Part shown: positions 1,344-45,063 of the stretch, in pieces
How the letters are laid out: the number at the start of each line of letters is the position of its first letter
Numbering within the stretch: position 1 is the stretch's first letter
DNA from: an uncultured Spirochaetaceae bacterium
GTDB taxonomy: Bacteria; Spirochaetota; Spirochaetia; Treponematales; Treponemataceae
Direction of reading: 5' to 3'
Assembly (NCBI GenBank): GCA_902799965.1
Contig: CADCCO010000009.1
Location: forward strand, 1 to 54,226
Length of the DNA stretch: 54,226 nt
Translations under genes and position numbers: made by a program
The notes under the pieces: model-generated
What the model was told of the DNA's origin: nothing
Database searches by the model: none
What the model saw: only the letters and a program-made list of their open reading frames with translations

Positions 1344-2750
1344 TTAGAGGCCCCCAATCACTTCATTAAATCTTTTCCCAAACACATCAAACGTAAAATT
1401 CTCTTCATAAGTTTTCCTTGCCGCCAAACGCATGTCGCCAAGTTCATCATAGCTTTCAATTATATGAATCATTTTCTCATACAATGAATTTTCATCGCCC
1501 GCTTTACAAACAAATCCGTTTTTGCCGTCGGTTATATATTCCGCCATGCCAGTGTTGTCGGACACAATGCAAATTTTTGAATTCATCATACCTTCTGTAA
1601 TAACCAACGACATTGTCTCTTCAAAACTTGGACAAACAACAACATCAATGTCATTCTTATACGCTTCAGCTATTTGCGCGCGTGACAAAGCGCCCATAAC
1701 CACTACAAAAGGCAAAGACTCCGCGCGCTCCAAAACACTTTTTGCATAATCATCATTACCAGCTTTTCCTATAATAAGAAAATCGCAATGATTCGGATAA
1801 GCTTTCAAAAAAATATCCTGCGCCTTCAATTGTTCAACACGTCCTATAATGGCAAATGTTATTTTGCAGTTCCCCTTACTTTCATTGAAACTTTTTTTAT
1901 ACACAGTTCCTTCATCCGAAATGCCATATGGAAATAGAGAACATTCTCGACCTGGAAAATATTCGAGGAAAGCCCGTTTTGCTATAGAACTTACCGCTAA
2001 AACATTGACTCTGGAAAGCCATGCCCCATCTTTGTATTGTGGGAATTGAGCAAAAGTACTCTCGTAAAATTTATAATAAATGTCGTTCGGCTCATGAATC
2101 CACAACGAGCAAGGCACAACGCTTGAAATCTTATAAGCAAGATCAACAAAAGGGAATCCGTTGACTATGGCATAATCAAAATGCGATTTAATCCAACCGA
2201 GCTCGATCTTTGTGACATTGCAGAATGCGGGATAAACAATTATCTCAAAACCATAACCACACAACTCGTCCAATATAGCTGAGTCTGCGGAAGGAACAAT
2301 CAACGAAACCTTACGGCCGCTTTCTCTTACAGCGCGAACCAAATTCACAGCCGCCATAGTTCCACCGCCATAATTCACTATTGAAAAAGACACCATGGCA
2401 ACAGATTCTTTCCTTTTTGATTCCACCGCATAAGGATTATATACCTCACACACTCCGGCAAGCCGCGACGAGATATACTCGTCATATAGTAAAATTTTCT
2501 TTGGGGGAACACCAAGGTCTAGAAGCTGATCCTTAATTCTTATTGCGTTTTTTTTTGCCACAAAGATGGCGACAAAATCAAACTCAACTTTGAAAAGTTC
2601 ATTTGGCGCTATAACAGGCACGCCTTCCCAAGAAACACCATGCTTGCTTGCGTCATTGTCCACAAAGCAAACGACAATATCTTTTTTTAAAATATGTCGG
2701 ATGAATTTTTTACAATAAATACCTGTTCCAAAAACAGCTATACGATTCAT
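1344..2750 (-). CDS. GT4 glycosyltransferase with N-terminal Rossmann module
   Basis: A 468-residue protein when started at the ATG at 2750, which forms an ATGA overlap with the upstream phosphatase stop and follows a GGTGGGAG ribosome site; an in-frame ATG at 2777 would add nine residues. Residues 1-95 form a Rossmann-like module (VFGTGIYCKKF, then VDNDASKHG and GVPVIAP). The rest is a GT-B group-1 glycosyltransferase with the EX7E pair in FEETMSLVITEG and an AIIGRVEQLK donor-domain strand. It probably transfers a nucleotide-activated sugar at the inner membrane. As the last gene of the KdsB-aldolase-KdsC operon, it may use the product of that pathway, which is inferred from position only. 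Confidence 0.8.
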   Translation of the reverse strand: MNRIAVFGTGIYCKKFIRHILKKDIVVCFVDNDASKHGVSWEGVPVIAPNELFKVEFDFVAIFVAKKNAIRIKDQLLDLGVPPKKILLYDEYISSRLAGVCEVYNPYAVESKRKESVAMVSFSIVNYGGGTMAAVNLVRAVRESGRKVSLIVPSADSAILDELCGYGFEIIVYPAFCNVTKIELGWIKSHFDYAIVNGFPFVDLAYKISSVVPCSLWIHEPNDIYYKFYESTFAQFPQYKDGAWLSRVNVLAVSSIAKRAFLEYFPGRECSLFPYGISDEGTVYKKSFNESKGNCKITFAIIGRVEQLKAQDIFLKAYPNHCDFLIIGKAGNDDYAKSVLERAESLPFVVVMGALSRAQIAEAYKNDIDVVVCPSFEETMSLVITEGMMNSKICIVSDNTGMAEYITDGKNGFVCKAGDENSLYEKMIHIIESYDELGDMRLAARKTYEENFTFDVFGKRFNEVIGGL

Positions 2751-3250
2751 ACTCCCACCGATTTCCCTACACGCCACATATTTCTTTCAACCAAAAAAGC
2801 CTCAACAATATCCCTCACAGCGCATTGCCCGCCGTCAAAAGGGCTTATATAATCAGCAACCGCTTTGATTTCTTTGCAAGCGCCGGCAGGACAAGCTTTA
2901 AAGCCGCATTCATTCATAAGAGCAAGGTCATTCAAATCGTCGCCAACGCAAGCCACTTCGCCATAGGTTATGTTTCTTTCGCTTAAGAAACTGTCAACAA
3001 ACGTTTTTTTGTCCTTGATTCCTTGAACAATAAAGTCAATGCACAACTCTTGCATGCGTCTTTTTGTGGCGGCGCATTCTCGTCCTGTAAGAACCATTGT
3101 CTTGCAACCAGCCTCCTTAAGCGCAAAAAAAGCGGCGGCGTCTCGAGTGTTGAATTTTTTAAACTCGTTTCCGTTGTTGTCATAATAAACGCCGCCGTCG
3201 GTCATAGTGCCGTCAACATCAAAAATCCACAAAAAAGGAATCTTTTTCAT
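2747..3250 (-). CDS. kdsC: KdsC-like HAD phosphatase
   Basis: 167 residues from the ATG at 3250, preceded by GAGGTGG; an upstream ATG at 3265 would bury that site. The motifs are those of the C0 HAD family of KdsC: FDVDGTMTDGG (nucleophile and acid-base Asp), NTRDAAAFFALKEAG, TGRECAATKRR and the metal motif GDDLNDLALM. KdsC removes the phosphate from Kdo-8-phosphate, and relatives act on N-acetylneuraminate-9-phosphate type products. It sits between an HMG-CoA-lyase-type aldolase and a GT4 gene, with overlaps at both ends, and a KdsB-like gene lies two genes upstream. The substrate is probably the phosphorylated ulosonic acid made by the neighbouring aldolase. The exact sugar is unknown. Confidence 0.78.
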   Translation of the reverse strand: MKKIPFLWIFDVDGTMTDGGVYYDNNGNEFKKFNTRDAAAFFALKEAGCKTMVLTGRECAATKRRMQELCIDFIVQGIKDKKTFVDSFLSERNITYGEVACVGDDLNDLALMNECGFKACPAGACKEIKAVADYISPFDGGQCAVRDIVEAFLVERNMWRVGKSVGV

Positions 3251-3251
3251 G

Positions 3252-4817
3252 TCAAGCCACCTCATAAGCGGATTTTGTGATGAACTTTATGTCCATATTC
3301 AATGAATTCAATGTCGTTGCCATCTCTTTGTCATAATCTTTGCCATGAATTGTATACGCGCGCATGTCCGGACGGCAATAATTCGTCTGCCCGTTCGCAT
3401 ATCCGTCAGCGCCCGCAACATGAACAATTTTCAAGCCGCATTTTTTTAACAACGTCAAAACCATTATCAAGCTGTTGATATTCTGAGAGCCTGTGCCGCA
3501 AAGCCCATTATAGTTAATTCGATACTTTACATCGCCGTCAACAATATTTGAGGTTGCAATCACAGAAGATTTTTTGTCAACCACAGATTCGTAGCGCTTA
3601 TTGTTATTGCAGAATGTGTAATCGACTTTAAAATCAGCCGGCGTAAAATTCACAGAAATTACAAGAGGTTTGCGTGAAGAAATAAAATCGTCTATCCGTT
3701 TCCGTTCCGAATTCAAAGACATTCCGGGAGCCAGCAATAGGATTTCTTTATTGGCAAATATTTTTGTCAAATCAGCAAGAGCCTGTGAATCGTTCAATTC
3801 CATGCTCTGATAATTTTCATAAAGGAATTCCGCATAAGCCTTGTCAAAAACATTTTTCTTTGCAGACTCGATTCTTGACAAAATATTATTTATATCCCTG
3901 TTTGTCAACGTGCCTTTATCCAAATAGAATTCCGCATAATTCCTATGAAGGTTATAATGAGCGGAAAGGAAATATGCCGGATTGTAGCCCCATTCGCTGT
4001 GACCATGCAAAGGCATTATATAATCCTGAATGGCGTCCATAAGACAATTCAAGTCGTAATTTTTGCCAGAATAATCGTTAAGATAATCGCATATCAATTC
4101 CACAGGAAGGTTCCCTGGAGCGCGCCCCATTCCCATAAGGCTTCCGTCTATTGTCACGCCGCGATCAAGGCGCATGTCCGCAAAACGCTGCGCAAGAGAG
4201 GAACTCAAGGACATATTTTCATGCAAATGAAGCCCCAGCCGTATGCTTTTATCCAAGTTATTGTCCGCAAGGGTCGCTATCCTGTCCAAATCTCGGCGTT
4301 TCATGCTGCCAAAAGTATCGACGATGCTAAACTGCCAAGGCATCATCTCATTGACCTGACGGATTATGCCAAGCAAGTCAGCGTCGCCATAGCCCATGAC
4401 ATTTATAGGATTAACGCTGACTTTATACCCCAAACTCTTGATTTTAGCGGCAAATTCAAGACCCTCTTTTATGTCATACTCGTGAAAAGTGACTCTTATC
4501 AATTCAATGCCGCTTCCGCTGTATGGAGTCAGATTTGAAACATCATAATTGGATTGCATCGCCATCGCGGAATACACTGTTTTCTTTTTTGAATCCGATT
4601 GTGGCAAAAAAGAATTCAACTCCTCTATGGTTTCGCAAACAGTCCGTCCATTTTGACTGTCGTCGCCGCTCCTCAAAAAGCCGACTTCAACGACATCTAC
4701 ATTTGCGTCGGAAAGCAATCCAACAATTGCCCGAGCCCTGTTAAAGCCCCAATTCCAATCATTGACGTAACCGCCGTCTCTAAGCGTGCAATCTAGAACC
4801 ATTAAATCGTTTGTCAT
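3252..4817 (-). CDS. HMGL-type aldolase fused to GT42/DUF115-like domain (copy 1)
   Basis: A 521-residue protein of two parts. Residues 1-300 are a DRE-TIM/HMG-CoA-lyase-like barrel: DCTLRDGGYVND (9-20) supplies the Arg and Asp of this superfamily, HLHEN (197-201) the metal histidines, and GMGRAPGN (229-236) the loop typical of DmpG-type aldolases. Residues 357-521 resemble the Rossmann-like core of DUF115/GT42 sialyltransferases, with LLLAPGMSLN, then VISVNF and VDYTFCNN. The gene overlaps the KdsB-like gene by ATGA and abuts the KdsC-like gene, and no KdsA or NeuB gene is in the window. I infer that it makes the carbon skeleton of the CMP-activated acid and perhaps also handles its transfer. 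A paralogue lies at 28773-30374. Confidence 0.72.
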   Translation of the reverse strand: MTNDLMVLDCTLRDGGYVNDWNWGFNRARAIVGLLSDANVDVVEVGFLRSGDDSQNGRTVCETIEELNSFLPQSDSKKKTVYSAMAMQSNYDVSNLTPYSGSGIELIRVTFHEYDIKEGLEFAAKIKSLGYKVSVNPINVMGYGDADLLGIIRQVNEMMPWQFSIVDTFGSMKRRDLDRIATLADNNLDKSIRLGLHLHENMSLSSSLAQRFADMRLDRGVTIDGSLMGMGRAPGNLPVELICDYLNDYSGKNYDLNCLMDAIQDYIMPLHGHSEWGYNPAYFLSAHYNLHRNYAEFYLDKGTLTNRDINNILSRIESAKKNVFDKAYAEFLYENYQSMELNDSQALADLTKIFANKEILLLAPGMSLNSERKRIDDFISSRKPLVISVNFTPADFKVDYTFCNNNKRYESVVDKKSSVIATSNIVDGDVKYRINYNGLCGTGSQNINSLIMVLTLLKKCGLKIVHVAGADGYANGQTNYCRPDMRAYTIHGKDYDKEMATTLNSLNMDIKFITKSAYEVA

Positions 4818-5548
4818 TTTAAGTTACCTGCGACGCGCGCCCGCACATACTCCAAGTCACTCATTGTATCAACAGACAAGGAATTATACTCTTGGACTTC
4901 TATAAACTTCAATTGTTTACCATAATCAAGAAAACGCAAAGTGTCAATTCCTTCAATCCTTTCAAAGCGTCCCGGCTTAGAGCTTTTGTAAAAATCAAGC
5001 ATTTTTTTGTTGTAGCCCAAAATTCCAACATGCTTATAATATTGATAGTCAATTGACTTAAAGGGATACGGTATAGGAGTTCGCGACATATAAAGGGCGT
5101 TCATTTCGTTGTCAAAAACGACTTTTATGTTGGAAGGGTCAAGGACATGGGAAGGTTGCGTAATTTTCGTTATTATGTTTGTTCCAAACTCCACACCATC
5201 AGGAATTTCATTTGGAATTGCCACCTTTACAGCGCAACAGTCTATCAAAGGCTCGTCGCCATTTATTTGAATATAAAAATCAGCGCTGACGGACTCCGAG
5301 ACTTCCTGCAAACGGTTGGCGCCTGTAGGATGGTCGTTCCGCGTCATAACGGCATCAATACCGTACTTTTTGCACGCCGACAAAATACGCTCGTCGTCAG
5401 TGGCCACCAAAAGTTCAGAAAATTCACTTATCTCTTGAACGCGGCTATAAACCCACCAAATCATAGGCTTTCCGCAAATATCTGCCAAGGGCTTGCCCGG
5501 CAAACGCGTCGAACCGTATCGCGCTGGAATTACGCCTACTACTTTCAT
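4814..5548 (-). CDS. kdsB: CMP-Kdo synthetase-like cytidylyltransferase
   Basis: 244 residues, close to the usual KdsB length. It opens with IPARYGSTRLPGKPL, the CTP-binding signature of the family, followed by VATDDERI, DHPTGANRLQEV (KdsB has DHxSGTDR or similar), NGDEPLI and SRTPIPY, and ends with SVDTMSDLEYVR. The reaction expected is CTP plus a 3-deoxy-2-ulosonate giving the CMP-sugar. The changed DHPTGANR and GILGY segments leave room for a substrate other than Kdo. It is the first gene of a four-gene coupled set (kdsB-like, aldolase, kdsC-like, GT4) joined by 4-bp overlaps and a one-base gap, which argues that all act on one sugar. Cytoplasmic enzyme. Confidence 0.83.
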   Translation of the reverse strand: MKVVGVIPARYGSTRLPGKPLADICGKPMIWWVYSRVQEISEFSELLVATDDERILSACKKYGIDAVMTRNDHPTGANRLQEVSESVSADFYIQINGDEPLIDCCAVKVAIPNEIPDGVEFGTNIITKITQPSHVLDPSNIKVVFDNEMNALYMSRTPIPYPFKSIDYQYYKHVGILGYNKKMLDFYKSSKPGRFERIEGIDTLRFLDYGKQLKFIEVQEYNSLSVDTMSDLEYVRARVAGNLK

Positions 5549-5559
5549 ATCAAAACCTC

Positions 5560-6831
5560 TTATTCATGCGGGAACAAACTGTCGAAATCCACGCGGGGAA
5601 AAACCTCCAGCTTTCCGCCGCGAGTGGCATTGTATATTTTTATGCCATGGGCATCGGCATATTTTTTCGCAGCTTGGTAGGCGTTAAGACAAAAATCTGG
5701 ATAAAAAGAATTGTTTTTTTTTGCTTCTAATTTATAAAAGTGATTCCCTGGTTGACCAGAAGCACCAAAAGAAAAATCAACTCCAAGAAGATAAATTTCT
5801 GAAAACCCCATATAGGCGGCAAACTGAAGGCATATATAGGTGATTGTACCGGCATCAAAACAACAAACAGACACATCCTCAGAGAAGGGAATATTTTTGT
5901 CAAAACGATTTACACTGACTGCATGAAATTGCAAAACCTCCATGTTATTTTGCTTATACAAATCACTTATAAATTTTAACGGAATGTCAAGATTTTTTAT
6001 AAAATTATAAAACTGTTCAATAAGGAGCAAATCAACAGATAGATAAAGGTCTGGTCTCCATTTTGTATATGAAAACGCCTCATAGATTCGATTCATACTT
6101 ATGCAAAACTCACCATTTTTTTGAAGCGTGTCTAAATCTTCCATTTTTAAGCTAGGACCGGTAGCAACAATAAAACATCGCTTTTTGGAATATTTATCTT
6201 TAAGAGAAGCTATATGTGGATTACGATAACTCGCTATCTGACTTGAAAAATCAAAAAGATTGTAAACTTTGCAATAGAGACTCTTAAAACTTTCCAGCGG
6301 TTCAGATAGAAAAAGATTATGCTCGTTATTTATTTGAGGAATTTCTTCACAATAGTTTTCTGGAAACATTTTTTTTAAAGCTTCACGCTGACGATTGCCA
6401 TAGTTTTTCGCAGGAACAATATACACCCTAATTTTTTCCGCAATACGACTGAACAGTTCTGCCGCCACAAGATTAACCCCGTAAAAAATACATGGGAGAT
6501 TTTCATCAAATTTGAATGGCAATTCATCATATATATTTTGTATATACAAAAATGAGCACTCTGCTGGTTGTTGCGAGAGAACAAAATACGGCAAAAAATC
6601 ATTGTCAGAGAGAATTTTTTTCTCCACATCAATATAGTCAACCATCGAAATTATTATAGGAACGCCGTTGTAAAGTTTTTTATAAGATTCATAGGACAGG
6701 ATATCTTTTTTTTCGAAATATTGCCCCTGCTTTGAAACATCGCCATCTATAAAGGCAAGCACTCTTTCACTCTTGAGCAATTCAAAAAGGCGGCCCCCTT
6801 TTTTCCCTGTCCCCCAAATAACATACCTCAT
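5560..6831 (-). CDS. DUF115 (MAF-like) glycosyltransferase with Rossmann front module
   Basis: 423 residues from the ATG at 6831, which makes an ATGA overlap with the radical-SAM gene upstream; the longer frame adds 12 unlikely residues. Residues 1-90 are a Rossmann-like module (WGTGKKGGRLFELL, FIDGDVSKQG). A second similar strand-loop (FYGVNLVAAELF, about 117-128) follows. From residue 217 a DUF115 domain is clear: FIVATGPSLKMEDL, ISMNRIY, LYLSVD and LLGVDFSFG. DUF115 proteins include motility-associated factors that transfer nonulosonic acids to flagellin and share a fold with GT42 sialyltransferases. It may use the CMP-sugar made by the genes just downstream; the acceptor is unknown. Confidence 0.7.
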   Translation of the reverse strand: MRYVIWGTGKKGGRLFELLKSERVLAFIDGDVSKQGQYFEKKDILSYESYKKLYNGVPIIISMVDYIDVEKKILSDNDFLPYFVLSQQPAECSFLYIQNIYDELPFKFDENLPCIFYGVNLVAAELFSRIAEKIRVYIVPAKNYGNRQREALKKMFPENYCEEIPQINNEHNLFLSEPLESFKSLYCKVYNLFDFSSQIASYRNPHIASLKDKYSKKRCFIVATGPSLKMEDLDTLQKNGEFCISMNRIYEAFSYTKWRPDLYLSVDLLLIEQFYNFIKNLDIPLKFISDLYKQNNMEVLQFHAVSVNRFDKNIPFSEDVSVCCFDAGTITYICLQFAAYMGFSEIYLLGVDFSFGASGQPGNHFYKLEAKKNNSFYPDFCLNAYQAAKKYADAHGIKIYNATRGGKLEVFPRVDFDSLFPHE

Positions 6832-8018
6832 GCCCGCTTCTCCACCGCATAATAGCACTTTCTGCAAATAAAATCGTCATCCCCATCCGTCGTCATCGCC
6901 AGCCAAACACGCTTCATCTCTTCACCGCGCACAATTTGTTCATACGAAGACTCATTCAAATTACCAACAATATGTTTCAAACCAAAATCGTTGCAGCACA
7001 AGGCAAGAGAACCATCAGGCAAAAGCACAAAATGGTTCATAGCGGCGGCACGCGAACAGCGAATTTTTCCATGTTTATGAACATGCGTGAGATTGCCGGC
7101 ATTTTTATCTAAATTTCCTGCCCGATCGCTCATCTCGCAATAAACCTTGAGTTTGCCCTCTGTCAATTTTAACACTTCTGGATGGGGCGTTGACTGACAG
7201 TTGGCATTATCTATAAATGGAGAACCGTCAGGCTTCTTGGCCTCAATGGCTTTTGCTAAAATTGCAAGGTATTCTTCCGTAATTGGTATATTGGCAAAGC
7301 CATCTGCATCAGCTGTATGTATGCATAAATATCGAAATGGAATTTTTACCAAACGGACAAATTCTTCCAGAGAAAGACCTTCAAAAGTCGTGAACAGCGT
7401 AGCAGAATGCCCGGATTCAACAGTATATTCCATCATCTTCAAGCTGTCTTTGTTAAAAAATGGTTCTACAAAGCCTGAAAAATCAACGATTGTCTCTTTT
7501 GGAAGTTTTTCAAGAAAGTTCTTATATTCTTCAAAAGTCATTTCAGACTTACGGTTCTTGTTGCCCTTAAAATAAGCCTTCAACAGATTGCTTTGAGGAC
7601 AAAAACGACAGTTGACCGCGCAACCAATTTTTGAAGTCACTTCAATTATTGGAGAACGATATCGCTCAGCATTCCATGGATCATAAGTTAAAATATCTTC
7701 AGGAAGCGTAATTATTTCACAAAACCCCAGATTCCTAAGGAAGTTTGCTATTCTCTTTTCACCACGCTCAAGAACAGCAATTACAATGACAGCATTTTTT
7801 TCTTTTGAAGCAAGTTCGCGCGCTGAAATTACAGGAAGTCCATTGTAAACAGCCTTATTGTTCTGAACATCTGAAACACAAAAACCTTTTACAGCAACAT
7901 CACTTTCTTTGCAAAGATTATAGGCAATCTGCGCCACCTTGCCAGCCCCAAAAAGATAAAGCGGACGATTCTGTACAGCTCTAAAAAAATCTGCAGTAAA
8001 TATTTTTTTAATTTCCAT
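6828..8018 (-). CDS. Radical SAM/SPASM protein with Rossmann front module
   Basis: 396 residues. Residues 1-110 hold the Rossmann-like module seen in many neighbours (LFGAGKVAQIA, GLPVISARELA). The radical SAM core starts near 125, with the cluster motif C133-x3-C137-x2-C140 (CAVNCRFC). The C-terminal region has IRCSRAAAMNHFVLLPDGSLALCCND and a final ICRKCYY, the cysteine pattern of a SPASM auxiliary cluster. Such enzymes use S-adenosylmethionine radicals to alter peptides or carbohydrates (epimerisation, dehydrogenation, crosslinking). No small peptide substrate gene is evident next to it, so a sugar or sugar-carrier substrate is more likely here; that is inference. It overlaps the downstream DUF115 gene by ATGA. 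Confidence 0.75.
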   Translation of the reverse strand: MEIKKIFTADFFRAVQNRPLYLFGAGKVAQIAYNLCKESDVAVKGFCVSDVQNNKAVYNGLPVISARELASKEKNAVIVIAVLERGEKRIANFLRNLGFCEIITLPEDILTYDPWNAERYRSPIIEVTSKIGCAVNCRFCPQSNLLKAYFKGNKNRKSEMTFEEYKNFLEKLPKETIVDFSGFVEPFFNKDSLKMMEYTVESGHSATLFTTFEGLSLEEFVRLVKIPFRYLCIHTADADGFANIPITEEYLAILAKAIEAKKPDGSPFIDNANCQSTPHPEVLKLTEGKLKVYCEMSDRAGNLDKNAGNLTHVHKHGKIRCSRAAAMNHFVLLPDGSLALCCNDFGLKHIVGNLNESSYEQIVRGEEMKRVWLAMTTDGDDDFICRKCYYAVEKRA

Positions 8019-8026
8019 TTCTGCTA

Positions 8027-8055
8027 ATTAAACATAAAATTTCAAAAATATTCAA
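8027..8055 (-). promoter_or_regulatory. Candidate promoter before the radical-SAM gene
   Basis: On the minus strand TTGAAT (8050-8055), a 17-bp spacer and TTTAAT (8027-8032) precede the start codon at 8018. The match is good but not perfect, and the region is AT-rich, so chance similarity is possible. Confidence 0.3.
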
Positions 8056-8061
8056 TCCCTT

Positions 8062-9153: not shown

Positions 9154-9168
9154 TTCTTCCTCACCTTT

Positions 9169-10023: not shown

Positions 10024-10154
10024 CCTAATGCTGCATTAAATATCAAGATTCAATATAAAATCAGTATAGTGATTAAAAAAAGATTGTTATAAATTTTTCT
10101 TACACATCTATTTTTTTGAAAAATCATCAATAAAGATTAAAATATTGCACCCCT

Positions 10155-11273: not shown

Positions 11274-11291
11274 TTCGCAACCCCTCGCGCT

Positions 11292-20325: not shown

Positions 20326-20334
20326 CCCCCCCCC
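20326..20334. repeat. Poly-C/G tract (9) abutting the FkbM start codon
   Basis: Nine C on the plus strand (G9 in the coding sense) lie directly before the ATG of the methyltransferase and share one G with the TAG that closes the decayed ATPase frame. Length change here would alter the distance to any upstream initiation signal, and the frame of any translation entering from upstream. Confidence 0.75.
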
Positions 20335-25402: not shown

Positions 25403-26290
25403 CTACACCCAAAAGTCCGTTTTTTCAAATTCAACCTGGGGCTTCCAGCCGGTGTCCGCCGTCAATTCGCGAATGTCGGCCACAAGAAACATCGGTTGGT
25501 GCGGATAGTATTCCTTAGCGCCAAGCTTTAGCGGAACGGCGGGCGCGATTTTCTTTTGCAAGAGCTCCACGTATTCCCAAAGAGGCCTTCCCCGCCCGCT
25601 TCCAAGCGGATAAAATTTTCCGTCAACGCCGCGCTCGGCCACGGCCAAAAAGGCGCGGGCCGCGTCGTCGCAGTGAAGGTAGTCCCACATTTGCTCGCAC
25701 TTTGTAAGCTCAGGGCTGCGGCCGGCCTTAAGCTCGCGGACGACATAGCTAATCAAAGTGTTTTCGCCGTCATTCTGGCCGTAAACGCTGAGGATTCTAA
25801 GCCAGTTGAAGCGCAGGCCCAACTGCTTGCACAGCACGGCCGAAAATTTTCCGGCCGCATGCTTCGCTATTCCGTAGCCGCTTTCGGGCTTTACGGGAAG
25901 CTCCGGCGTTAGCGGAACGGTCTGAACGCCGTATTCCGCCTGGCTTCCGGCGCCTATGAAAACAGAGCAGCCCGCGCGCTTGGCAAGGCGAACCGCGTCA
26001 AGCGCGCATTCGACGTTCTTAAGCTGGCAGTCCACGTCGTCGCGGCCGATCACGGAAGTCTTGTTCCAGGCAAGGTGCAAAAAAACGTCGTAAGAGCCTT
26101 CAAGCTCCAGCGCCTTGTAATCGGAAATGTCGCATTCAACAACACGGACGCGGCTGTCTTGCGGAATGTTCTCGGCGCGCGGCGAGCCTTTTCTTGCAAT
26201 GCAAGTTATTTCATAATTTTGCTTTAGCGCTTCGCGGACAATCGCGCTTCCGATCATGCCGGTCGCGCCGGTAAGAAGAATTTTTTTCAC
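25403..26290 (-). CDS. NAD(P)-dependent SDR, candidate CDP-sugar ketone reductase
   Basis: 295 residues of an extended SDR: ILLTGATGMIGSAIVREAL (cofactor loop), DVFLHLAWNK, FIGAGSQAEYG and SGYGIAKHAAGKF with the YxxxK pair, then WDYLHCDDAARAFLAV, a common substrate-loop segment. Similar reductases finish 3,6-dideoxyhexoses (abequose or paratose type) and YerF finishes yersiniose. It overlaps the HAD gene by ATGA and is the last gene of the stretch that begins at rfbF. I therefore propose that it reduces a keto group in the CDP-linked sugar. The exact stereochemistry cannot be read from sequence. Confidence 0.75.
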   Translation of the reverse strand: MKKILLTGATGMIGSAIVREALKQNYEITCIARKGSPRAENIPQDSRVRVVECDISDYKALELEGSYDVFLHLAWNKTSVIGRDDVDCQLKNVECALDAVRLAKRAGCSVFIGAGSQAEYGVQTVPLTPELPVKPESGYGIAKHAAGKFSAVLCKQLGLRFNWLRILSVYGQNDGENTLISYVVRELKAGRSPELTKCEQMWDYLHCDDAARAFLAVAERGVDGKFYPLGSGRGRPLWEYVELLQKKIAPAVPLKLGAKEYYPHQPMFLVADIRELTADTGWKPQVEFEKTDFWV

Positions 26291-26940
26291 GCAAGGGCCT
26301 CCAGTTGGGCAAGCAGCTCCGCCGCGCTCTTTGCGACATTAGCGCAAGCGGCGGCGCGCAATTCCGCTTCCGTTCCTGTTCCCCACAAAACGCCGATTGC
26401 AGGAATGCCGTTCGCGGTCGCGGCGCGCGCGTCAGTGTCCATGTCGCCTACGCCGACGAATTTTTGGCCCGAAAAATCGGCCATGCAGAGCGCGAAAAGC
26501 TCAGTCTTTGTTTTGCGCGAGGCGGCCGGCTCCTTCATAAAAGAATACGGCGTTGCGACGGAGACGAAATATTTTTTCCAGCCCAGCTTTTCCAAAATGC
26601 GGCCGGTCGCCAAGTCAGGCTTGTTGGTGACAATGTGGTGGACAAAGCGCGCGTCCGCCAAAATCTTTTCAACGCCGTCAAAGGGCGGCGTGTTGTCAAA
26701 ACCGCAATTGTCGTAATTTGCGCGAAAGGCGGAGACCACCTGGGCCTTTTTTCCCTCGTTCAAAACGCTTTTGTCAAAGGCCGCGTCCAAAATTTTGTCA
26801 ATCGTTGGGCCAATTCTAAAAGGCGCTTTTTGGTCGCATTCATTCAACCCAACTTCGCGGACAGACTTTACAAGCGCGGCGTAAACTTCTTTTTCGGAAT
26901 CAATCAAAGTTCCGTCCAAATCCCAAATGACATGAAGCAT
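26287..26940 (-). CDS. HAD phosphatase, phosphoglycolate-phosphatase-like
   Basis: 217 residues: VIWDLDGTLIDSEKEVYAAL (DxD nucleophile motif), HHIVTNKPDLATGRIL (motif II region with TN), a conserved lysine segment around KTKTELFAL and the metal motif VGVGDMDTDARAATANG. The cap insertion is of the small helical type. These enzymes hydrolyse small phosphate esters. Overlap with the SDR downstream by ATGA and an 11-bp gap to the TPP enzyme upstream place it in the branched-sugar operon, where it could remove a phosphate from an intermediate made by the aldolase. That role is inference. Confidence 0.78.
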   Translation of the reverse strand: MLHVIWDLDGTLIDSEKEVYAALVKSVREVGLNECDQKAPFRIGPTIDKILDAAFDKSVLNEGKKAQVVSAFRANYDNCGFDNTPPFDGVEKILADARFVHHIVTNKPDLATGRILEKLGWKKYFVSVATPYSFMKEPAASRKTKTELFALCMADFSGQKFVGVGDMDTDARAATANGIPAIGVLWGTGTEAELRAAACANVAKSAAELLAQLEALA

Positions 26941-26951
26941 AAAAGATCCGC

Positions 26952-28763
26952 CTATTGCAACGAAAGCGCTTCCGCTTTTATCGCCTTCATTTCTTCTTCC
27001 GGCAAGAAGGGGAACATGTCCTCCAAGCTTGGAGACACCATAGAGCCGTCCGGCAATCTTTTTGACGAAAGCTTGGGGCTAAAGAATTGTTCGGGATTCA
27101 CCACCGCCTCGACAATCATAGGGCCGTCCATTGCCAGCGCCTTTTTAACGCCCTCGCGCGCGGCGGAGTATTTTTCAATCTTCACAAAAGGAATTTGATA
27201 CGCGTAGGCGATTCGCTCAAGTTGCGGGAAGGACAAGTCGCCGCTTTCCTGCCCCACGCCAACCTCGCAATGGTTTGAAAAAAGATTCCGCTGCGTTTGG
27301 CGGATTGAATGATAGCCGGCGTTGTTCAACACGACAATCTTTAGGTTCAGCTTGTTGTGGAATATCGTCTGCAATTCCTGAATGTTCATCTGAAGGCTTC
27401 CGTCGCCCTCTATGCAAACCGTTCGACTGGCGCCGCGGCGGACGGCTACGCCCAAAGCGGCGGGCAAACCGTAGCCCATCGCCGCGCAGCCGGAATTGGT
27501 GAAAAGGCGCGTGTTCTTTTTTACAATCGCAGCTTGGAATCCTATAACGCAGGCGCTTCCGTTTGAGCAAACCACAGCGTCGCCGGCGGACAATTCCGAA
27601 AAAAGCGCGTCAACAAAGGCGTAAGGATTCATCGGGCTTTCTTCATTTTTCATCTCAGGAAGGCAAGCCGGATAGCGAAGGTTTATTTTACGCGCCCATT
27701 CAGTCCACTTTGAATGGCTGCAAAGCGCGGCGCTCGATTCGTTCAGCGCGGCGATTGCGTCTTTAACGTCGGCGAATATCGGCATGTCAATCTTTAGCGT
27801 AGGCTTTTCAAGCTCGGCGGGGTCGATGTCAACCATTATTTTATAGGCCGCCGGCGCGAAGTTTTCCCAATTGTAGCTTATTTGCCTTATGTTCAAGCGG
27901 CAGCCCAAAATCAAAAGCAAGTCCGAATATTGCGCCGTAAAGTTTCCGCCGCGCGTTCCGACAGTTCCAGGGCGGCCGGCAAAGCAGGGGTTGTCGTCCG
28001 CCACAAGGTCGTGCGCGTTCCAAGCCGTCACAACGGGAATTTTTAGTTTTTCAACAAGCGTCTGGAACGCCTCAAAAGCGCCGCCGATTCTCACGCCCTC
28101 GCCGGCAAAAATCACGGGCCGCTTTGCCGCGTTCAATTTTTTTATTATTTCGTCAACAGCGGCCGGCGCTACTGGCGGTGGAAGCTCGCGCGCGTCCTCG
28201 GCGCTGTCGTAATGGCGCAAGGCTTCAGTTTCTATCGTCGCGCCCTGTATGTTAAGAGGAACGTCAACCCAGCAAGGGCCGGGGCGGCCATGCGTCGCCA
28301 AATAAAGCGCCTTTTCCAAAACATAGGCGATATCGTTGGCGTTTTCAATCATCACGGCGTATTTTGTCATTGTCTTTACAGTGTCAACGATGTTGAATTC
28401 TTGGTCGCCCAATTGGCGCAGGGGAACGCGCGTCGAGCGGATTGTTGTGGAAAACTTGACTTGTCCGGAAAGAACGAGCATCGGAATCGAGTCAAGCCAG
28501 CCGCCCAAAACGCCCGTAATGGCGTTGGTTCCGCCCGGCCCGCTTGTGACGCAAACGGCGGCGATTTTTCCGCTGTAGCGCGCGTAGCCTTCCGCCGCGA
28601 TGGCGCAGGCCTGCTCGTGGTGGTTGTAAGTGGATCGCAATTTTGGATGGTGGCCAAGCGCGTCGTTCAAGTGCATCGCGCCGCCGCCCGTAACGGTAAA
28701 GACATCCGTAATTCCGTTGTTTGCCAAAAAGTCCGCTATGTAATCCGCAACTCGTTGTTTCAT
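26952..28763 (-). CDS. TPP-dependent acetolactate-synthase-like enzyme (YerE-like role proposed)
   Basis: 603 residues with all three domains of the acetohydroxyacid-synthase family. N-terminal: YNHHEQACAIAAEGYAR with catalytic E50, then SGPGGTNAITGVLGGWLDSIP. Middle: a Rossmann-like domain at about 190-350. C-terminal: IEGDGSLQMNIQELQTIF...VVLNNAGYHSIRQTQ, the ThDP-Mg motif GDG-x(n)-NN. No regulatory subunit or other branched-chain amino-acid gene is nearby. In polysaccharide loci with rfbF, rfbG and rfbH, a homologue (YerE) transfers a two-carbon unit from pyruvate to C4 of CDP-3,6-dideoxy-4-ketoglucose. All those genes are here on one strand, so the same role is proposed. It is adjacent to an HMGL-type aldolase fusion, which is not part of the known pathway. 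Confidence 0.75.
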   Translation of the reverse strand: MKQRVADYIADFLANNGITDVFTVTGGGAMHLNDALGHHPKLRSTYNHHEQACAIAAEGYARYSGKIAAVCVTSGPGGTNAITGVLGGWLDSIPMLVLSGQVKFSTTIRSTRVPLRQLGDQEFNIVDTVKTMTKYAVMIENANDIAYVLEKALYLATHGRPGPCWVDVPLNIQGATIETEALRHYDSAEDARELPPPVAPAAVDEIIKKLNAAKRPVIFAGEGVRIGGAFEAFQTLVEKLKIPVVTAWNAHDLVADDNPCFAGRPGTVGTRGGNFTAQYSDLLLILGCRLNIRQISYNWENFAPAAYKIMVDIDPAELEKPTLKIDMPIFADVKDAIAALNESSAALCSHSKWTEWARKINLRYPACLPEMKNEESPMNPYAFVDALFSELSAGDAVVCSNGSACVIGFQAAIVKKNTRLFTNSGCAAMGYGLPAALGVAVRRGASRTVCIEGDGSLQMNIQELQTIFHNKLNLKIVVLNNAGYHSIRQTQRNLFSNHCEVGVGQESGDLSFPQLERIAYAYQIPFVKIEKYSAAREGVKKALAMDGPMIVEAVVNPEQFFSPKLSSKRLPDGSMVSPSLEDMFPFLPEEEMKAIKAEALSLQ

Positions 28764-28772
28764 TCTTTTATC

Positions 28773-30374
28773 CTAAAAATATTTGCTTGGCGTTATCGCC
28801 TTAATTTCGATTCTTTCCTTGAAGGACGCGATGAATTTCTTCAATTCTGAATTCCTAAGCCCGACGTTCCGCTTGTCGTAAAGAAGCTTTGCGTATTCTG
28901 AATAGTAGCATTCGTCGATTTTGTCGCTGTAGCCGTCAAAGCCCGCGAGCGCGACGCTTTTCACGCCCAGCCGCGCGCAAAGGTTCAAAAGCAAGACAAG
29001 GGGGTTGTCGTAAATCGCGTCAACGTCAGACTTTAAGTTGGCGAAGTTCACCACATAGTCAACCTTTTCTTTTGCCTCGGTGACATTGGACGCGCAAACG
29101 ACTTTGGCGCGCTCGCTTTGCGCGTAGATCCTGCTAAAGAACTGGCTGTAGCGCTTTGAGTTTCCCATAAAAACATAGTCAACGGGAAATTCGTCGTTCA
29201 AAAAATTCACGCTAAAAACGACAGGGCCTTTTTCTTTTATGTAAGAATCGATTTCCGCCTCGCGCTCCTTTATCGACTTGCCGGGGCCAATCAAAAGAAT
29301 TTCCTTTCCCGCCAGTTCCGCCTTAAGCCTCTCGATGTCGCGGCTGTCGTCAATCTCAGTGTTTTGGAATTCTTGGTAAAGGCGCTCGCACAAATCCTTG
29401 TCGTACAAAAGATTTTTGTCGCCCTCGCGCGGAAGTCTTGAAAGAATTTCGTTTATTTGCTTTATCGAAAGGGTTTTCTTTTCCAAAAGCTGCGTCACGT
29501 AATTGGGGTGGCATTCGTTGAGCGCGGAAATGTAAAACATCGGCCTGTAGCCCCATTCTTTTTTGGCGAACTCTTTTGTAATGTCAATGTCAATCGCCTC
29601 TTGAATCTGGTTTATGTCGTAGCTCTTCCCAAAGCGCTCGTTCATGTACATCGCCACAAGCTCGGTGCAGGCGTTGCCCGCGCTCTTTCCCATTCCGAAC
29701 AGAGTTCCGTCAATGGACAAGTCGCGGCCTTTGACGTTTTCCATAACAGCGATTGTGTTTGAATACGCCAGCTGAAAATTGTTGTGCGCGTGGTAGCCAA
29801 GAATGATGTTCTTGTCAAGGCGCTCGTTCATAATCTTGCAGTAATGCAAAAGCTTGTCGCTGTGCATAAGGCCGTAAGTGTCAACGATTGTCACGGCGTA
29901 CGGAGAGATTTTGTTGATTTTATCGATAAGGACGCGCATTTCGTCGTCGCTAAAAGTGGTGACCGAAACCGGGTTAACAAAAACCTTGTAGCCCTTCTCT
30001 TTTATTTGGCGGCAAAAATCCAGCGCTTGGTCTTGAAGATGCTTCTTGAATATGACGCGGATTCCGTCCAAATGGCTTTGCGATTTTGGCGCGACGCTTT
30101 CAATCGAGCAAGTTCCGTAGTCAATCATCGCAACGACCATCGCGCTCGGCTTTTGCATTCCGTCAAAAACCGGCTCAATCGATTTTGTGTCGGGGTAAAT
30201 CGAACGGTTGGGGTCGTAGGCGCGGCGCGCGTCGACAAAGCCCACTTCTATCGCGTCAACCCCGGCGCTGTCCAAGCGGCTAAAAACGCTTTTTATGCTG
30301 CCCGCGCCGAATTCCCAGTCGTTCACGTAGCCGCCGTCGCGCAGCGTGCAGTCAAGAAGATAGAGCCTGCTCAT
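28773..30374 (-). CDS. HMGL-type aldolase fused to GT42/DUF115-like domain (copy 2)
   Basis: 533 residues, paralogue of the protein at 3252-4817. DCTLRDGGYVNDW (8-20), the metal pair H195/H197 in GYHAHNNF and FGMGKSAGNA (227-236) define the aldolase barrel. Residues 357-533 repeat the GT42/DUF115-like core (ILLIGPGKSI, then VVFSVNF and VDYVFMGNSKRY). The two copies share order and spacing of motifs but differ widely elsewhere, so they probably act on different substrates. Here the neighbours are the TPP enzyme (9-bp gap) and a membrane glycosyltransferase (ATGA overlap). Condensation or cleavage of a 4-hydroxy-2-oxoacid-like group on the branched sugar is one possibility. Function not established. 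Confidence 0.7.
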   Translation of the reverse strand: MSRLYLLDCTLRDGGYVNDWEFGAGSIKSVFSRLDSAGVDAIEVGFVDARRAYDPNRSIYPDTKSIEPVFDGMQKPSAMVVAMIDYGTCSIESVAPKSQSHLDGIRVIFKKHLQDQALDFCRQIKEKGYKVFVNPVSVTTFSDDEMRVLIDKINKISPYAVTIVDTYGLMHSDKLLHYCKIMNERLDKNIILGYHAHNNFQLAYSNTIAVMENVKGRDLSIDGTLFGMGKSAGNACTELVAMYMNERFGKSYDINQIQEAIDIDITKEFAKKEWGYRPMFYISALNECHPNYVTQLLEKKTLSIKQINEILSRLPREGDKNLLYDKDLCERLYQEFQNTEIDDSRDIERLKAELAGKEILLIGPGKSIKEREAEIDSYIKEKGPVVFSVNFLNDEFPVDYVFMGNSKRYSQFFSRIYAQSERAKVVCASNVTEAKEKVDYVVNFANLKSDVDAIYDNPLVLLLNLCARLGVKSVALAGFDGYSDKIDECYYSEYAKLLYDKRNVGLRNSELKKFIASFKERIEIKAITPSKYF

Positions 30375-31819: not shown

Positions 31820-31829
31820 GAAAATCTCC

Positions 31830-33164
31830 TTAGCGTCGCGCCCCGGCCTTTATCACAGCCGCCATCTTGTCAATCATCGCGTCGGTCATGCCCGGATACA
31901 CGCCCACCCAAAATGTGTCGCGCATAATGCGGTCGGTAGTTTCAAGGCCGCCCACAACGCGGTAGGCGGCCGTTCCGCGGATTTGGTCAAAGCAAGGGTG
32001 GCGGGTAAGGTTTCCCGCAAAAAGCGCGCGGGTCTGAATGTTTTCCGCCTCGATTTTTTTGACCAGCTCGTTGCGGCTGACGCCTTCCTTGCAGGTAATC
32101 AAAAATCCGAACCAGCTTGGGTCGCTGTCGGGAGCGGCTTCCGGCAAAATCAGTTTGTCCTGGGCGCCTTCCAACGCCGCGCGCAGGTGATTGAAGTTGG
32201 CCTTGCGCCGTTCGACAAACGAAGGGAATTTTTCCAGCTGGGCGCAGCCGATGGCCGCCTGCAAGTCGGTGGCCTTTAGGTTGTAGCCAAAGTGGCTGTA
32301 AGTGTACTTGTGGTCGTAGCCAAGCGGAAGCGTGCCGAACTTCCGGTCAAAGCGGTGGCCGCAAACGCCGTCCTTTCCGCTCGGGCAAACGCAGTCGCGG
32401 CCCCAATCACGCAAGGAGCGGATTATTTTATGCAAAAGCGGATTCTTTGTGTAGACCGCTCCGCCCTCGCCCATCGTCATGTGGTGCGGCGGGTAAAAGC
32501 TTGAAGTTCCGATGTCGCCGACTGTTCCTGTCTTGCAAGCCTTTCCGTCCAGCGTGTATTCCGAGCCGAGCGCGTCGCAGTTGTCTTCGACAAGCCACAA
32601 GTTATGCTTTTTGCAAAATTCCGTCACGGCCTTTAGGTCAAAGGGGTTTCCCAACGTGTGCGCCAGCATCACGGCCTTTGTCTTGGGGCTTAGGGCGGCC
32701 TCCAACTGCGCCGCGTCAATGTTGTACTGGGGAATCGTCACGTCGACAAAAACGGGAACGGCGCCGTACTGCAAAATCGGCGTCACCGTCGTGGGAAAGC
32801 CGCAAGCCACGGTAATCACTTCGTCGCCGCGCTGGATTTGCCGTTCCCTTAAAAGCGGAGAAGTCAGCGCCATAAAGGCAAGCAAGTTGGCCGAACTTCC
32901 GGAATTGACCAACGAAACAAATGGCGTTCCAAGATATTCGCCAAGCTCTTTTTCAAACTGGTCGGTGTAGCGGCCGCTTGTAAGCCAAAACTCCAGCGCG
33001 GCGTCGGCAAGGTTCATCATTTCCTTTTCGTCAAAAACGCGGCTTGCGTAGGCGATTCTGTCGCCGTCCTTCCATTCGGGACGAACCATGAATTTCTTGT
33101 AGTATTCGCGGACGCTTTCCAATATTTCTTTTGCCGCCTCTTCTTTTGTCTTGTTCTCAAACAT
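31830..33164 (-). CDS. rfbH: CDP-4-keto-6-deoxy-D-glucose 3-dehydrase (E1)
   Basis: 444 residues from the ATG at 33164, close to the usual 437; the longer frame adds 28 residues from inside rfbG. It is a fold-type-I PMP enzyme in which the usual lysine is replaced by histidine (FYPPHHMTMGEGG, H227/H228), the mark of E1. The iron-sulfur cysteines are present as C196 (DNCDALGSEY) and C258, C260 and C268 (CVC then C). With a reductase partner (E3, RfbI/DdhD) it removes the 3-hydroxyl of CDP-4-keto-6-deoxyglucose. No E3 gene is in the window, so an external reductase is needed. It directly follows rfbG. Confidence 0.92.
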   Translation of the reverse strand: MFENKTKEEAAKEILESVREYYKKFMVRPEWKDGDRIAYASRVFDEKEMMNLADAALEFWLTSGRYTDQFEKELGEYLGTPFVSLVNSGSSANLLAFMALTSPLLRERQIQRGDEVITVACGFPTTVTPILQYGAVPVFVDVTIPQYNIDAAQLEAALSPKTKAVMLAHTLGNPFDLKAVTEFCKKHNLWLVEDNCDALGSEYTLDGKACKTGTVGDIGTSSFYPPHHMTMGEGGAVYTKNPLLHKIIRSLRDWGRDCVCPSGKDGVCGHRFDRKFGTLPLGYDHKYTYSHFGYNLKATDLQAAIGCAQLEKFPSFVERRKANFNHLRAALEGAQDKLILPEAAPDSDPSWFGFLITCKEGVSRNELVKKIEAENIQTRALFAGNLTRHPCFDQIRGTAAYRVVGGLETTDRIMRDTFWVGVYPGMTDAMIDKMAAVIKAGARR

Positions 33165-33165
33165 A

Positions 33166-34227
33166 TTATTCGCCAAAATATTCTTTGATTTGCTTGTCAG
33201 TAATTTCAGCCGCGTCCGCGCCGCTTTGAACGGCCTTTTCCCACTCAACGATTTTTTTCACCGCTTTGCGAATGTTCCATTGCGGCTTCCAGCCCAGTTT
33301 TTCTTTGGCCTTTGAGCAGTCTAATTTTAAAAAGCCCGCTTCATGGGGAGCGTCAGGCTCCAAGCCGCTTTTCCAACTGGCGCCGCGCCCCCACTCGGCG
33401 CAAAACAAGTCGGCCAAAGTTCCGGTCGTGACGCAAGAATCGTCGTCAGGGCCAAAGTTGTAGGCTCCGGCGAGCGGCTTGTCTTCATATTGCGCCTTTG
33501 CCAGCGCAAGGTAGCCGCGAAGGCATTCCAAAACGTGCTGGTAAGGCCGCGTGGAATTTGGGTTTCGCAAAATTATTTCTTTTCCCGCCGTGACCGCGCG
33601 AACGCAGTCGGGGATGATTCTGTCAACGGCGTAGTCGCCGCCGCCGATAACGTTTCCGCTGCGCGCGGTGCTTATAGCTGGATACTTCGTGCGCTCGAAG
33701 AAAGAATTTCTGTAGCTGTAAGTGACCAGTTCCGAGCAAGACTTGCTGTTGGAATAAGGGTCGTAGCCGCAAAGAGTTTCGTCTTCTCGGTAGCCGCTTT
33801 GCCGCTCTCGGTTAAGGTAAACCTTGTCCGTGGTCACGTCCACAAGAGAACGGACTGACGGACAGGCGCGGACGGCCTCAAAAAGATTTACGGTTCCCAT
33901 AACGTTCGTCTCGTAAGTTTCGGCGGGATTCTTGTAGGCGGTCCTGACAATCGGCTGCGCGGCAAGATGGATGACGATGTCGGGCCGCGCCTCAAGCATG
34001 GCCGCCTTCAATTTTTCGCCGTCGCGAACGTCTCCGAGCGCGGACTTTATTTGGCCTTCCGTTCCAGTCAGTTCAAAAAGGCTTGGCCTTGTGGGCGGCT
34101 CAAGAGAATAGCCCGCGACATCCGCTCCCGCCAAAAGCAAAACTCGGCAAAGCCAAGTTCCCTTAAAGCCCGTGTGGCCGGTAAGAAAAATTTTTTTGTT
34201 CTTATAAAAAGAAAGCAATTCAGTCAT
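33166..34227 (-). CDS. rfbG: CDP-glucose 4,6-dehydratase
   Basis: 353 residues, matching the family size. Cofactor loop IFLTGHTGFKGTWLC, then VIHLAAQPIVRTAYKNPAETYETNVMGTVNLFEAVR, VDVTTDKVYLNRE (Thr-Asp-Lys catalytic triplet in place of the Ser/Glu of other dehydratases), YDPYSNSKSCSELV (YxxxK) and the SARSGNVIGGGDYA segment diagnostic for CDP-glucose dehydratase. It makes CDP-4-keto-6-deoxyglucose from CDP-glucose. It is sandwiched between rfbF and rfbH with gaps of 8 bp and 1 bp, the classical order of the CDP-dideoxyhexose pathway. Confidence 0.93.
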   Translation of the reverse strand: MTELLSFYKNKKIFLTGHTGFKGTWLCRVLLLAGADVAGYSLEPPTRPSLFELTGTEGQIKSALGDVRDGEKLKAAMLEARPDIVIHLAAQPIVRTAYKNPAETYETNVMGTVNLFEAVRACPSVRSLVDVTTDKVYLNRERQSGYREDETLCGYDPYSNSKSCSELVTYSYRNSFFERTKYPAISTARSGNVIGGGDYAVDRIIPDCVRAVTAGKEIILRNPNSTRPYQHVLECLRGYLALAKAQYEDKPLAGAYNFGPDDDSCVTTGTLADLFCAEWGRGASWKSGLEPDAPHEAGFLKLDCSKAKEKLGWKPQWNIRKAVKKIVEWEKAVQSGADAAEITDKQIKEYFGE

Positions 34228-34235
34228 GCAAAGCC

Positions 34236-35021
34236 CTATTTTTTAAAATGCCCCCAAACGTCCCAGGGCGCTTTTTCCGTGGCCCAAATGGCGTTCAAGT
34301 CTTCCTTGTCCTTCAGCATGTCCATCGGGTGCCAAAAGCCAGAATGTTTGTAGGCGTGCAGCTGGCCGTCTTTTGCTATGCGCTGGAGGGGCGAGCGCTC
34401 CCACATAACGTTCGCCGAATCTTTGGGAATGTAGTCAAGAGCCTTGTTTTCGCAAACAAAAAAGCCGCCGTTAATCCAAGAGTCAATCGGCTTTTCCTGG
34501 AACTGGCTTATAGTTCCGTCAGCCTGAATGTCCAAGGCGCCAAAGCGGCCTTCCGGCTGGACGGCGGTAAGCGTGACAAGCTTTCCGCTTTTTGCGTGCG
34601 AATTCACAAGCTTGCTTATGTCCACGTCGCCCACCCCGTCGCCGTATGTCAGCATAAAAGGCTCGCTTCCGATGTAAGACTTGGCTCTTGCGATGCGCCC
34701 CGCCGTCATAGTGTCGGGGCCGGTGTAAAGCATCGTGACCTTCCAAGGCTCGCTTCGCATTTTGTGAATCTGAACGTCGTTGTTGGCCATGTCGATGGTC
34801 ATGTCGCTGTAGCGGTTGTAGTAGTTTAAAAAGTAGTCTTTTATAACGTGCCCTTTGTAGCCGGTTAGAATCACAAAGTCATTGTAACCGTAGTGGCTGT
34901 AAATTTTCATTATGTGCCAAAGAATGGGATATCCGCCGATTTCCACCATCGGCTTGGGAATGAGTTTAGTTTCCTCTCCAAGCCGCGTCCCCATCCCGCC
35001 GGCAAGAATCAATGTTTGCAT
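34236..35021 (-). CDS. rfbF: Glucose-1-phosphate cytidylyltransferase
   Basis: 261 residues from the ATG at 35021; upstream in-frame ATGs overlap the promoter and are unlikely. Motifs: LILAGGMGTRLGEETKLIPKPMVEIGG (nucleotide binding), HYGYNDFVILTGYKGHVIKDYF, LTYGDGVGDVDI, VQPEGRFGALDI, WINGGFFV and GFWHPMDMLKDKEDLNAIW. This set is specific to RfbF, which makes CDP-glucose from CTP and glucose-1-phosphate. It is the first gene of the rfbF-rfbG-rfbH series and has a promoter 22 bp upstream of its start. Confidence 0.93.
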   Translation of the reverse strand: MQTLILAGGMGTRLGEETKLIPKPMVEIGGYPILWHIMKIYSHYGYNDFVILTGYKGHVIKDYFLNYYNRYSDMTIDMANNDVQIHKMRSEPWKVTMLYTGPDTMTAGRIARAKSYIGSEPFMLTYGDGVGDVDISKLVNSHAKSGKLVTLTAVQPEGRFGALDIQADGTISQFQEKPIDSWINGGFFVCENKALDYIPKDSANVMWERSPLQRIAKDGQLHAYKHSGFWHPMDMLKDKEDLNAIWATEKAPWDVWGHFKK

Positions 35022-35043
35022 ACGCCTTGTTTTCCAAAAATTC

Positions 35044-35072
35044 ATTATAGCGGAATTTGGGGAAAGGCGCAA
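35044..35072 (-). promoter_or_regulatory. Promoter of the rfbFGH operon
   Basis: Minus-strand TTGCGC (35067-35072), a 17-bp spacer and a perfect TATAAT (35044-35049), 22 bp before the rfbF ATG at 35021. An AAGG-type ribosome site follows. It would drive at least rfbF-rfbG-rfbH and probably the genes on to about 25.4 kb. Confidence 0.55.
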
Positions 35073-45023: not shown

Positions 45024-45063
45024 TATTTTATCCTCAACAATTTTTTTGCGCAAAATTTTATGG
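44941..45063. repeat. 123-bp direct repeat, left copy
   Basis: This stretch matches 48522-48644 in the same orientation with three mismatches in 123 bp (44946, and two in the next 20 bp); the last 95 bp or so are identical. It spans the start of the glycosyltransferase gene and the last 11 codons of a GT2 gene. The two copies enclose the 3.5-kb conflict island. Confidence 0.9.

Follow-up and report, generated by a model that had tools for sequence, protein, structure and literature searches.

A window of 54,226 nucleotides (the whole stretch analysed; contig CADCCO010000009.1, assembly GCA_902799965.1) from an uncultured Spirochaetaceae bacterium carries on its minus strand, at 1344-5548, an operon which probably produces an acidic surface sugar activated with cytidine monophosphate (CMP). 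The genome of this bacterium (G000) was a 2.55-Mb assembly of 169 contigs with a completeness of 82.9%. Genes for a KdsB-like cytidylyltransferase, an HMGL-type aldolase of 521 amino acids, a KdsC-like phosphatase and a GT4 glycosyltransferase were found in the order given by an initial annotation of the sequence (Table 1), with positions confirmed to the base and families confirmed by Pfam and NCBIfam models. The kdsB-like gene was joined to the aldolase gene by an ATGA overlap, a single base separated the aldolase stop (3254-3252) from the start codon of the kdsC-like gene (ATG, 3250), and another ATGA overlap (2750-2747) joined the kdsC-like and GT4 genes. The unit extended upstream, where a DUF115/MptE-like gene ended 11 bases before the kdsB-like gene. 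No terminator-like site was found on the minus strand within 1344-5548, in a scan that was uninformative as the whole stretch also had fewer such sites than its shuffles; the promoter scan of the stretch was uninformative too.

Table 1. Features of the operon, adjoining genes and second cassette, with predicted functions (positions in the window)
Feature	Position	Strand	Evidence
KdsB-like cytidylyltransferase, predicted CMP activation of ulosonic acid	4814..5548	-	TIGR00466; KpsU 1gq9; Asp-Thr motif
HMGL-type (DmpG-like) aldolase barrel, residues 1-272 of 521-aa protein, predicted pyruvate aldolase	4002..4817	-	
Helical linker, residues 273-337, occupying the place of the DmpG C-terminal helices	3807..4001	-	model secondary structure; 1nvm alignment
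C-terminal sialyltransferase/MptE-fold domain, residues 338-521, predicted cytidine-nucleotide binder	3252..3806	-	
KdsC-like haloacid dehalogenase (HAD) phosphatase, predicted sugar-acid phosphate removal	2747..3250	-	TIGR01670; nearest solved chain 3e81
GT4 glycosyltransferase with N-terminal Rossmann-like module	1344..2750	-	PF00534 79.4 bits; PF22674 22.3 bits (under cut-off)
MptE/DUF115-like protein, candidate transferase for CMP-sugar	5560..6831	-	PF01973 66.2 bits; weak WaaZ match
Radical-SAM/SPASM protein, overlaps DUF115-like gene, same direction	6828..8018	-	PF13186 35.7 bits
Paralogous aldolase fused to same kind of C-terminal domain	28773..30374	-	PF00682 94.2 bits; aligned with first aldolase
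Thiamine pyrophosphate (TPP) enzyme, second cassette	26952..28763	-	PF00205, PF02776, PF02775
Phosphoglycolate-phosphatase-type HAD protein, second cassette	26287..26940	-	PF13419 60.3 bits; NF009695 74.5 bits (under cut-off)
DegT-family (RfbH-like), short-chain dehydrogenase/reductase (SDR; RfbG-like) and nucleotidyltransferase (RfbF-like) genes, predicted cytidine diphosphate (CDP)-dideoxyhexose supply	31830..35072	-	PF01041, PF16363, PF00483

The aldolase barrel matched PF00682 (HMGL-like, or DRE-TIM) at 65.5 bits (cut-off 29) and was closest to DmpG-type pyruvate aldolases; the scores of the NCBIfam models clearly favoured pyruvate aldolases. Alignment of the protein with DmpG structure 1nvm extended to residue 340. 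R13, D14, H197 and H199 were invariant in all 43 rows of the barrel alignment A1 (the window and 42 of 120 listed homologues), and they aligned with R17, D18, H200 and H202 of DmpG, which form its RD motif and HxH metal site. DmpG and BphI are catabolic in known cases. The window aldolase differed from them in lying far under the family cut-offs, in having Tyr in place of His21, in the fusion of its barrel to a Rossmann-like domain and in the lack of an adjoining aldehyde dehydrogenase. For BVU_2661 of Bacteroides vulgatus, a putative aldolase whose N-terminal domain is a structural-genomics entry (3dxi), no functional paper was found in the open-licence literature. In addition, a stand-alone HMGL-type protein of 337 amino acids with a DATLRDGG motif was encoded on contig C4 of the same genome (L012 5535-6548), adjoining a histidine-phosphatase-like gene; shorter proteins of this sort were common among genomes of the genus.

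For the fused C-terminal domain, no Foldseek match was obtained at E 0.001 and the whole-protein structure search gave no test of it; its superfold came from VIA-align instead, in which the predicted fold was of GT42 type and resembled CMP-sialyltransferases, Maf and MptE. PF01973 (MptE-like/DUF115) did not match the 521-residue protein at E 0.01; it did match the product of the neighbouring DUF115/MptE-like gene. The putative nucleotide-site residues of the domain were conserved. In CstII the catalytic residue is His188; its likely counterpart column, matched by eye in alignment A2 (the two window domains and 62 of the 67 locus pieces that could be used), was occupied by His in 6 of 64 rows, among them that of the window. 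Because this putative catalytic His was not conserved and the putative nucleotide-site residues were, binding is better supported by the alignment than transfer. The domain also differed from GT42 CstI/CstII, Maf and MptE-type HPPK in having no Pfam match there and in being fused to an aldolase.

The KdsB-like protein scored over the TIGR00466 equivalog cut-off (172.3 bits vs 155.2), and its nearest solved chain was KpsU 1gq9 (180 bits). In an alignment with Escherichia coli KdsB, the motif HxGIYxY ... LEQLR spanned His181, Tyr185, Glu210 and Gln211, which we take to be contacts of 3-deoxy-D-manno-octulosonic acid (Kdo). The comparison of this motif left out nine duplicates (the window gene three times and, in six cases, a fetched locus a second time) as well as matches aligned over fewer than 200 residues. 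The Glu-Gln pair was present in all six KdsB copies from genomes with KdsA and in the four solved KdsB chains for which alignments were listed, and in none of the 43 aldolase-linked KdsB-like copies, among them the window protein with Asp-Thr at this place. The replacements were of several kinds (IDTLR, NDMMR, INELR, IDHLR and IEILR among others), with those of L061 and L089 closest to the Kdo-type motif. Kdo is bound by the C-terminal domain of KdsB, according to a published study (PMC3149649). With the Glu-Gln motif missing from all aldolase-linked copies, Kdo was considered unlikely as the product; the missing pair and its varied replacements suggest that the ulosonic acid is probably not Kdo and that it probably differs among bacteria, with more than one acid produced. 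The KdsC-like protein was over the TIGR01670 subfamily cut-off (129.2 bits vs 106.95), and its nearest model was that of ketodeoxynonulosonic acid (KDN)-9-phosphate phosphatase (NF058599), under whose cut-off it remained (133.3 vs 180 bits).

Linkage was surveyed in at least 80 loci from named genomes, which were selected solely by a match to the aldolase family. A CMP-ulosonate-type cytidylyltransferase was located within 1.5 kb of the aldolase in 52 of the 80 listed loci (36 KdsB-type and 16 NeuA/PseF-type), and a KdsC- or phosphoglycolate-type phosphatase in 48 within the same distance. Conserved linkage, set beforehand as a test, thus held, and chance linkage was rejected since the loci had been selected by aldolase alone and yet carried these neighbours. 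A TPP enzyme occurred within 2.5 kb in 17 loci, with L062 having both it and a cytidylyltransferase. Neither was near in 12 loci; nine of these had a cytidylyltransferase farther off, and none was found farther along L045, L064 or L090. All five NeuA-type proteins tested were nearest to the PseF model and under its cut-off. Within the genus of the window, 57 of 98 genomes gave some match, in many cases confined to a barrel protein of shorter length, and the KdsB-aldolase-KdsC row recurred in G096 (L113).

The aldolase tree was a quick build with three long branches and with support from the Shimodaira-Hasegawa-like approximate likelihood ratio test (SH-aLRT) only. The window aldolase belonged to a set of 16 rows in which every partner was KdsB-type (SH-aLRT 100). 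The KdsB label needed at least 10 changes on well-supported branches, a count which is approximate because labels followed the better-scoring cytidylyltransferase neighbour: both types adjoined the aldolase in L116, and the near-identical aldolase of L117 was labelled KdsB. The NeuA label was not clustered on the tree (90 of 500 shuffles as low), and the TPP-linked rows did cluster (24 rows, four changes). Strict pairing of KdsB type with aldolase type was not seen, as IDTLR/IDTMR-type KdsB accompanied aldolases of several clades. Since KdsB-type and NeuA-type synthetases take each other's place next to a single kind of aldolase, what they most simply have in common would be a 2-ulosonic acid. 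The NeuB/NeuA, PseI/PseF and legionaminic acid (Leg) pathways share their NeuA/PseF-type partner with the 16 aldolase loci of that type, but NeuB itself lay inside one of the 80 listed loci, and the C-C bond made by the aldolase would derive from pyruvate, not from phosphoenolpyruvate (PEP).

The established routes to CMP-Kdo and CMP-nonulosonic acids begin with KdsA and NeuB, both of which use PEP. As the initial annotation had noted, neither lay in the window, and no KdsA over cut-off was found anywhere in the incomplete genome; its sole PF00793 match was a 3-deoxy-D-arabino-heptulosonate 7-phosphate (DAHP) synthase, by eye fused to prephenate dehydratase. In this genome alone a KdsA may have been missed through incompleteness, but KdsA over cut-off was likewise absent from 43 of 50 other cassette genomes. 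Of these 50, 43 had the cytidylyltransferase no more than 1.5 kb from the aldolase and seven had it farther along the locus. The seven genomes with KdsA belonged to two Akkermansia, Paludibacteraceae, Cyanobacteria, Gastranaerophilales, a Lachnospiraceae and an uncultured bacterium. The KdsA model matched in 38 of the 50 at E 0.001, in 31 of them only below cut-off; these weaker matches were read as DAHP synthases because of their frame length and their overlap with weak NeuB matches. Neither KdsA over cut-off nor strong NeuB (over 100 bits, our own threshold) was present in 23 of the 50 genomes, where all weaker NeuB matches (24-44 bits) overlapped weak KdsA-model matches. Seven of the 23 were named strains, namely Mediterraneibacter glycyrrhizinilyticus, Niameybacter massiliensis, Proteocatella sphenisci, two Paenibacillus, Robinsoniella peoriensis and Flavonifractor sp. 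An82. Inside the loci themselves, KdsA or NeuB was encoded in one of 80 (L062). By contrast, a single island carries kdsB, kdsD, kdsC and kdsA in a Gram-positive bacterium that uses the classical pathway (PMC4744853).

The proposal of a pyruvate aldol reaction, made in the initial annotation, is supported as the best explanation by sequence, fold and context, and we give a probability of about 0.6 that the operon produces a CMP-activated 3-deoxy-2-ulosonic acid through a pyruvate aldolase, without a PEP-dependent synthase. Gene order, families, predicted folds, conserved linkage and the absence of KdsA at cut-off were observed, and every reaction, pyruvate as the donor, the aldehyde and the role of the fused domain are inferred. 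In the 3252-4817 protein, the metal-dependent barrel would add pyruvate to an aldose phosphate, giving a 2-oxo-3-deoxy acid phosphate, from which the KdsC-like phosphatase would free the acid, and the KdsB-like enzyme would then couple it to CMP. A reversible aldol step would thus replace the KdsA/NeuB step, and could be driven forward because phosphate removal and CMP activation pull it. The fused domain may serve for feedback or tethering by binding the product's cytidine nucleotide, instead of acting as a transferase, and transfer of the CMP-sugar would be performed by the GT4 or the DUF115/WaaZ-like neighbour, the latter with a weak match to the Kdo transferase WaaZ (TIGR04437, 22.9 bits, cut-off 200). 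As in the KdsA-KdsC-KdsB pathway, KdsC-like and KdsB-like proteins over cut-off are expected to act in the order of phosphatase and then CMP activation; the differences are the HMGL-type aldolase instead of KdsA and the replaced Glu-Gln of KdsB.

Several findings weigh against this proposal. No cytidylyltransferase was found within 1.5 kb in 28 of the 80 listed loci and neither phosphatase type in 32, a relative of the aldolase served a TPP-only cassette without KdsB/NeuA partner in 16, and no gene naming the aldehyde substrate was found. Strong NeuB was present in 23 of the 50 cassette genomes, and 27 had KdsA over cut-off or strong NeuB, which may serve either separate glycans of theirs or the one considered here. 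The window's genome also encoded one NeuB, on contig C2 (L010 9015-10133), away from the operon. Together with the paralogous aldolase in a CDP-sugar cassette without KdsB/NeuA, these synthases would fit an ulosonic acid supplied by NeuB or KdsA elsewhere, or by salvage, with the aldolase performing another step such as a sugar branch or side chain. We consider this unlikely, given the 23 genomes with neither enzyme, seven of them named strains, and the single locus of 80 with a synthase inside. The initial annotation had stated that a dedicated synthase elsewhere would refute its proposal; no KdsA over cut-off was found in the genome, and one NeuB was found on another contig. This NeuB does not look dedicated, because its neighbours (a restriction system, a sensor kinase and a histidyl-tRNA synthetase gene) were by eye unrelated and it could pair with an SpsF-like cytidylyltransferase (PF02348, 84.3 bits) which starts a fused protein of 860 amino acids on contig C40 (L151). 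Perhaps the lone NeuB and the C40 protein form a separate nonulosonic acid system. By eye, the C40 protein continues into a PseG-like part and a methyltransferase.

The barrel itself gave further contrary points: the position of DmpG His21, presumably a catalytic residue, was an invariant Tyr17 in the aldolase rows, the structure model was poor at residues 11-21, and the equivalog cut-off of 4-hydroxy-2-oxovalerate aldolase (TIGR03217) was missed by far (61.7 bits vs 286). In another alternative, the barrel would catalyze in vivo a Claisen-type condensation with acyl-CoA or the cleavage of a 2-oxo acid. This is rated as decidedly unlikely, with the family scores favouring pyruvate aldolases and the setting being biosynthetic, in that the aldolase gene overlaps the gene of the activating enzyme amid glycosyltransferases. 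Least probable among the alternatives, and quite improbable, is that the pyruvate aldol route operates with the fused domain as a transferase placing the CMP-ulosonate on an acceptor: the putative catalytic His is found in few rows, the same domain occurs in the TPP/CDP cassette, which has no CMP-ulosonate synthetase, the phosphatase and activation steps intervene between the would-be reactions of both domains, and the region of the operon already contains GT4 and DUF115/WaaZ-like genes.

The second cassette of the window (25403-35072) contained the paralogous aldolase fusion, TPP enzyme, phosphatase, SDR and RfbH/G/F-like genes, the Rfb names being given by sequence resemblance and not by a model. 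Similar TPP/CDP-sugar sets recurred in other listed loci; in L070 aldolase and phosphatase formed a single protein of 752 amino acids, and the nearest named relative of the second aldolase was in a Treponema assembly (L073), which marks the bacterium as Treponema-like. YerE-type branched CDP-sugar synthesis is the closest known system, which likewise pairs a TPP enzyme with CDP-3,6-dideoxyhexose-type genes, but the second cassette adds the aldolase fusion and the phosphatase. One guess is that this aldolase supplies a pyruvate-derived branch on a CDP-3,6-dideoxyhexose.

Around the operon, a BrnT-type toxin homologue (856-1173; PF04365, 57.7 bits) lay just beyond the end of the unit, and the sigma-70-like consensus preceding it, at 1221-1193, was perfect. 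Six or more neighbouring proteins from different families (1344-13376 and 19561-20556) apparently had, at the start or inside, one similar short module of Rossmann-like type, with weak pairwise matches (E 0.0008 to 0.9); the carriers were the GT4, DUF115-like, two radical-SAM, glycosyltransferase (8062-9153), 9169-10023, HAD-like (11292-13376) and FkbM-like proteins. An overlapping gene pair at 45233-47073 matched the candidate anti-phage system PDC-M38A/B (E 4e-104 and 6e-93), and further candidate defence matches within the sugar locus were PDC-S01, a HEC-01A/AriA-like ATPase whose partner gene had no match, and PDC-M42A (13392-14693, 16105-18155 and 47646-48317). The protein of 43953-45143 shared its first approximately 27 residues with the hexapeptide-type acetyltransferase of 53297-53782, followed by glycosyltransferase-like sequence, which by eye looks like a partial duplication.

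No description of such a pathway was found in the open-licence literature, which does not prove novelty. A broader reading, which we put at somewhat less than an even chance, is that this is a third, PEP-independent route to CMP-ulosonates, in which DmpG-type pyruvate aldolases, fused to a sialyltransferase-fold domain that senses cytidine nucleotides, would replace KdsA/NeuB in gut Bacillota, Treponema, Akkermansia and Bacteroidales and yield unseen non-Kdo acids, with a sister branch in which this fused aldolase is coupled to TPP enzymes for branched CDP-sugars. If the pyruvate aldolase route is true, it would explain the CMP-ulosonate-type synthetases in bacteria without KdsA or NeuB, and would offer new aldolases for the synthesis of rare ulosonic acids. 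In this case searches keyed to NeuB or KdsA would overlook the acidic surface sugars of many gut bacteria.

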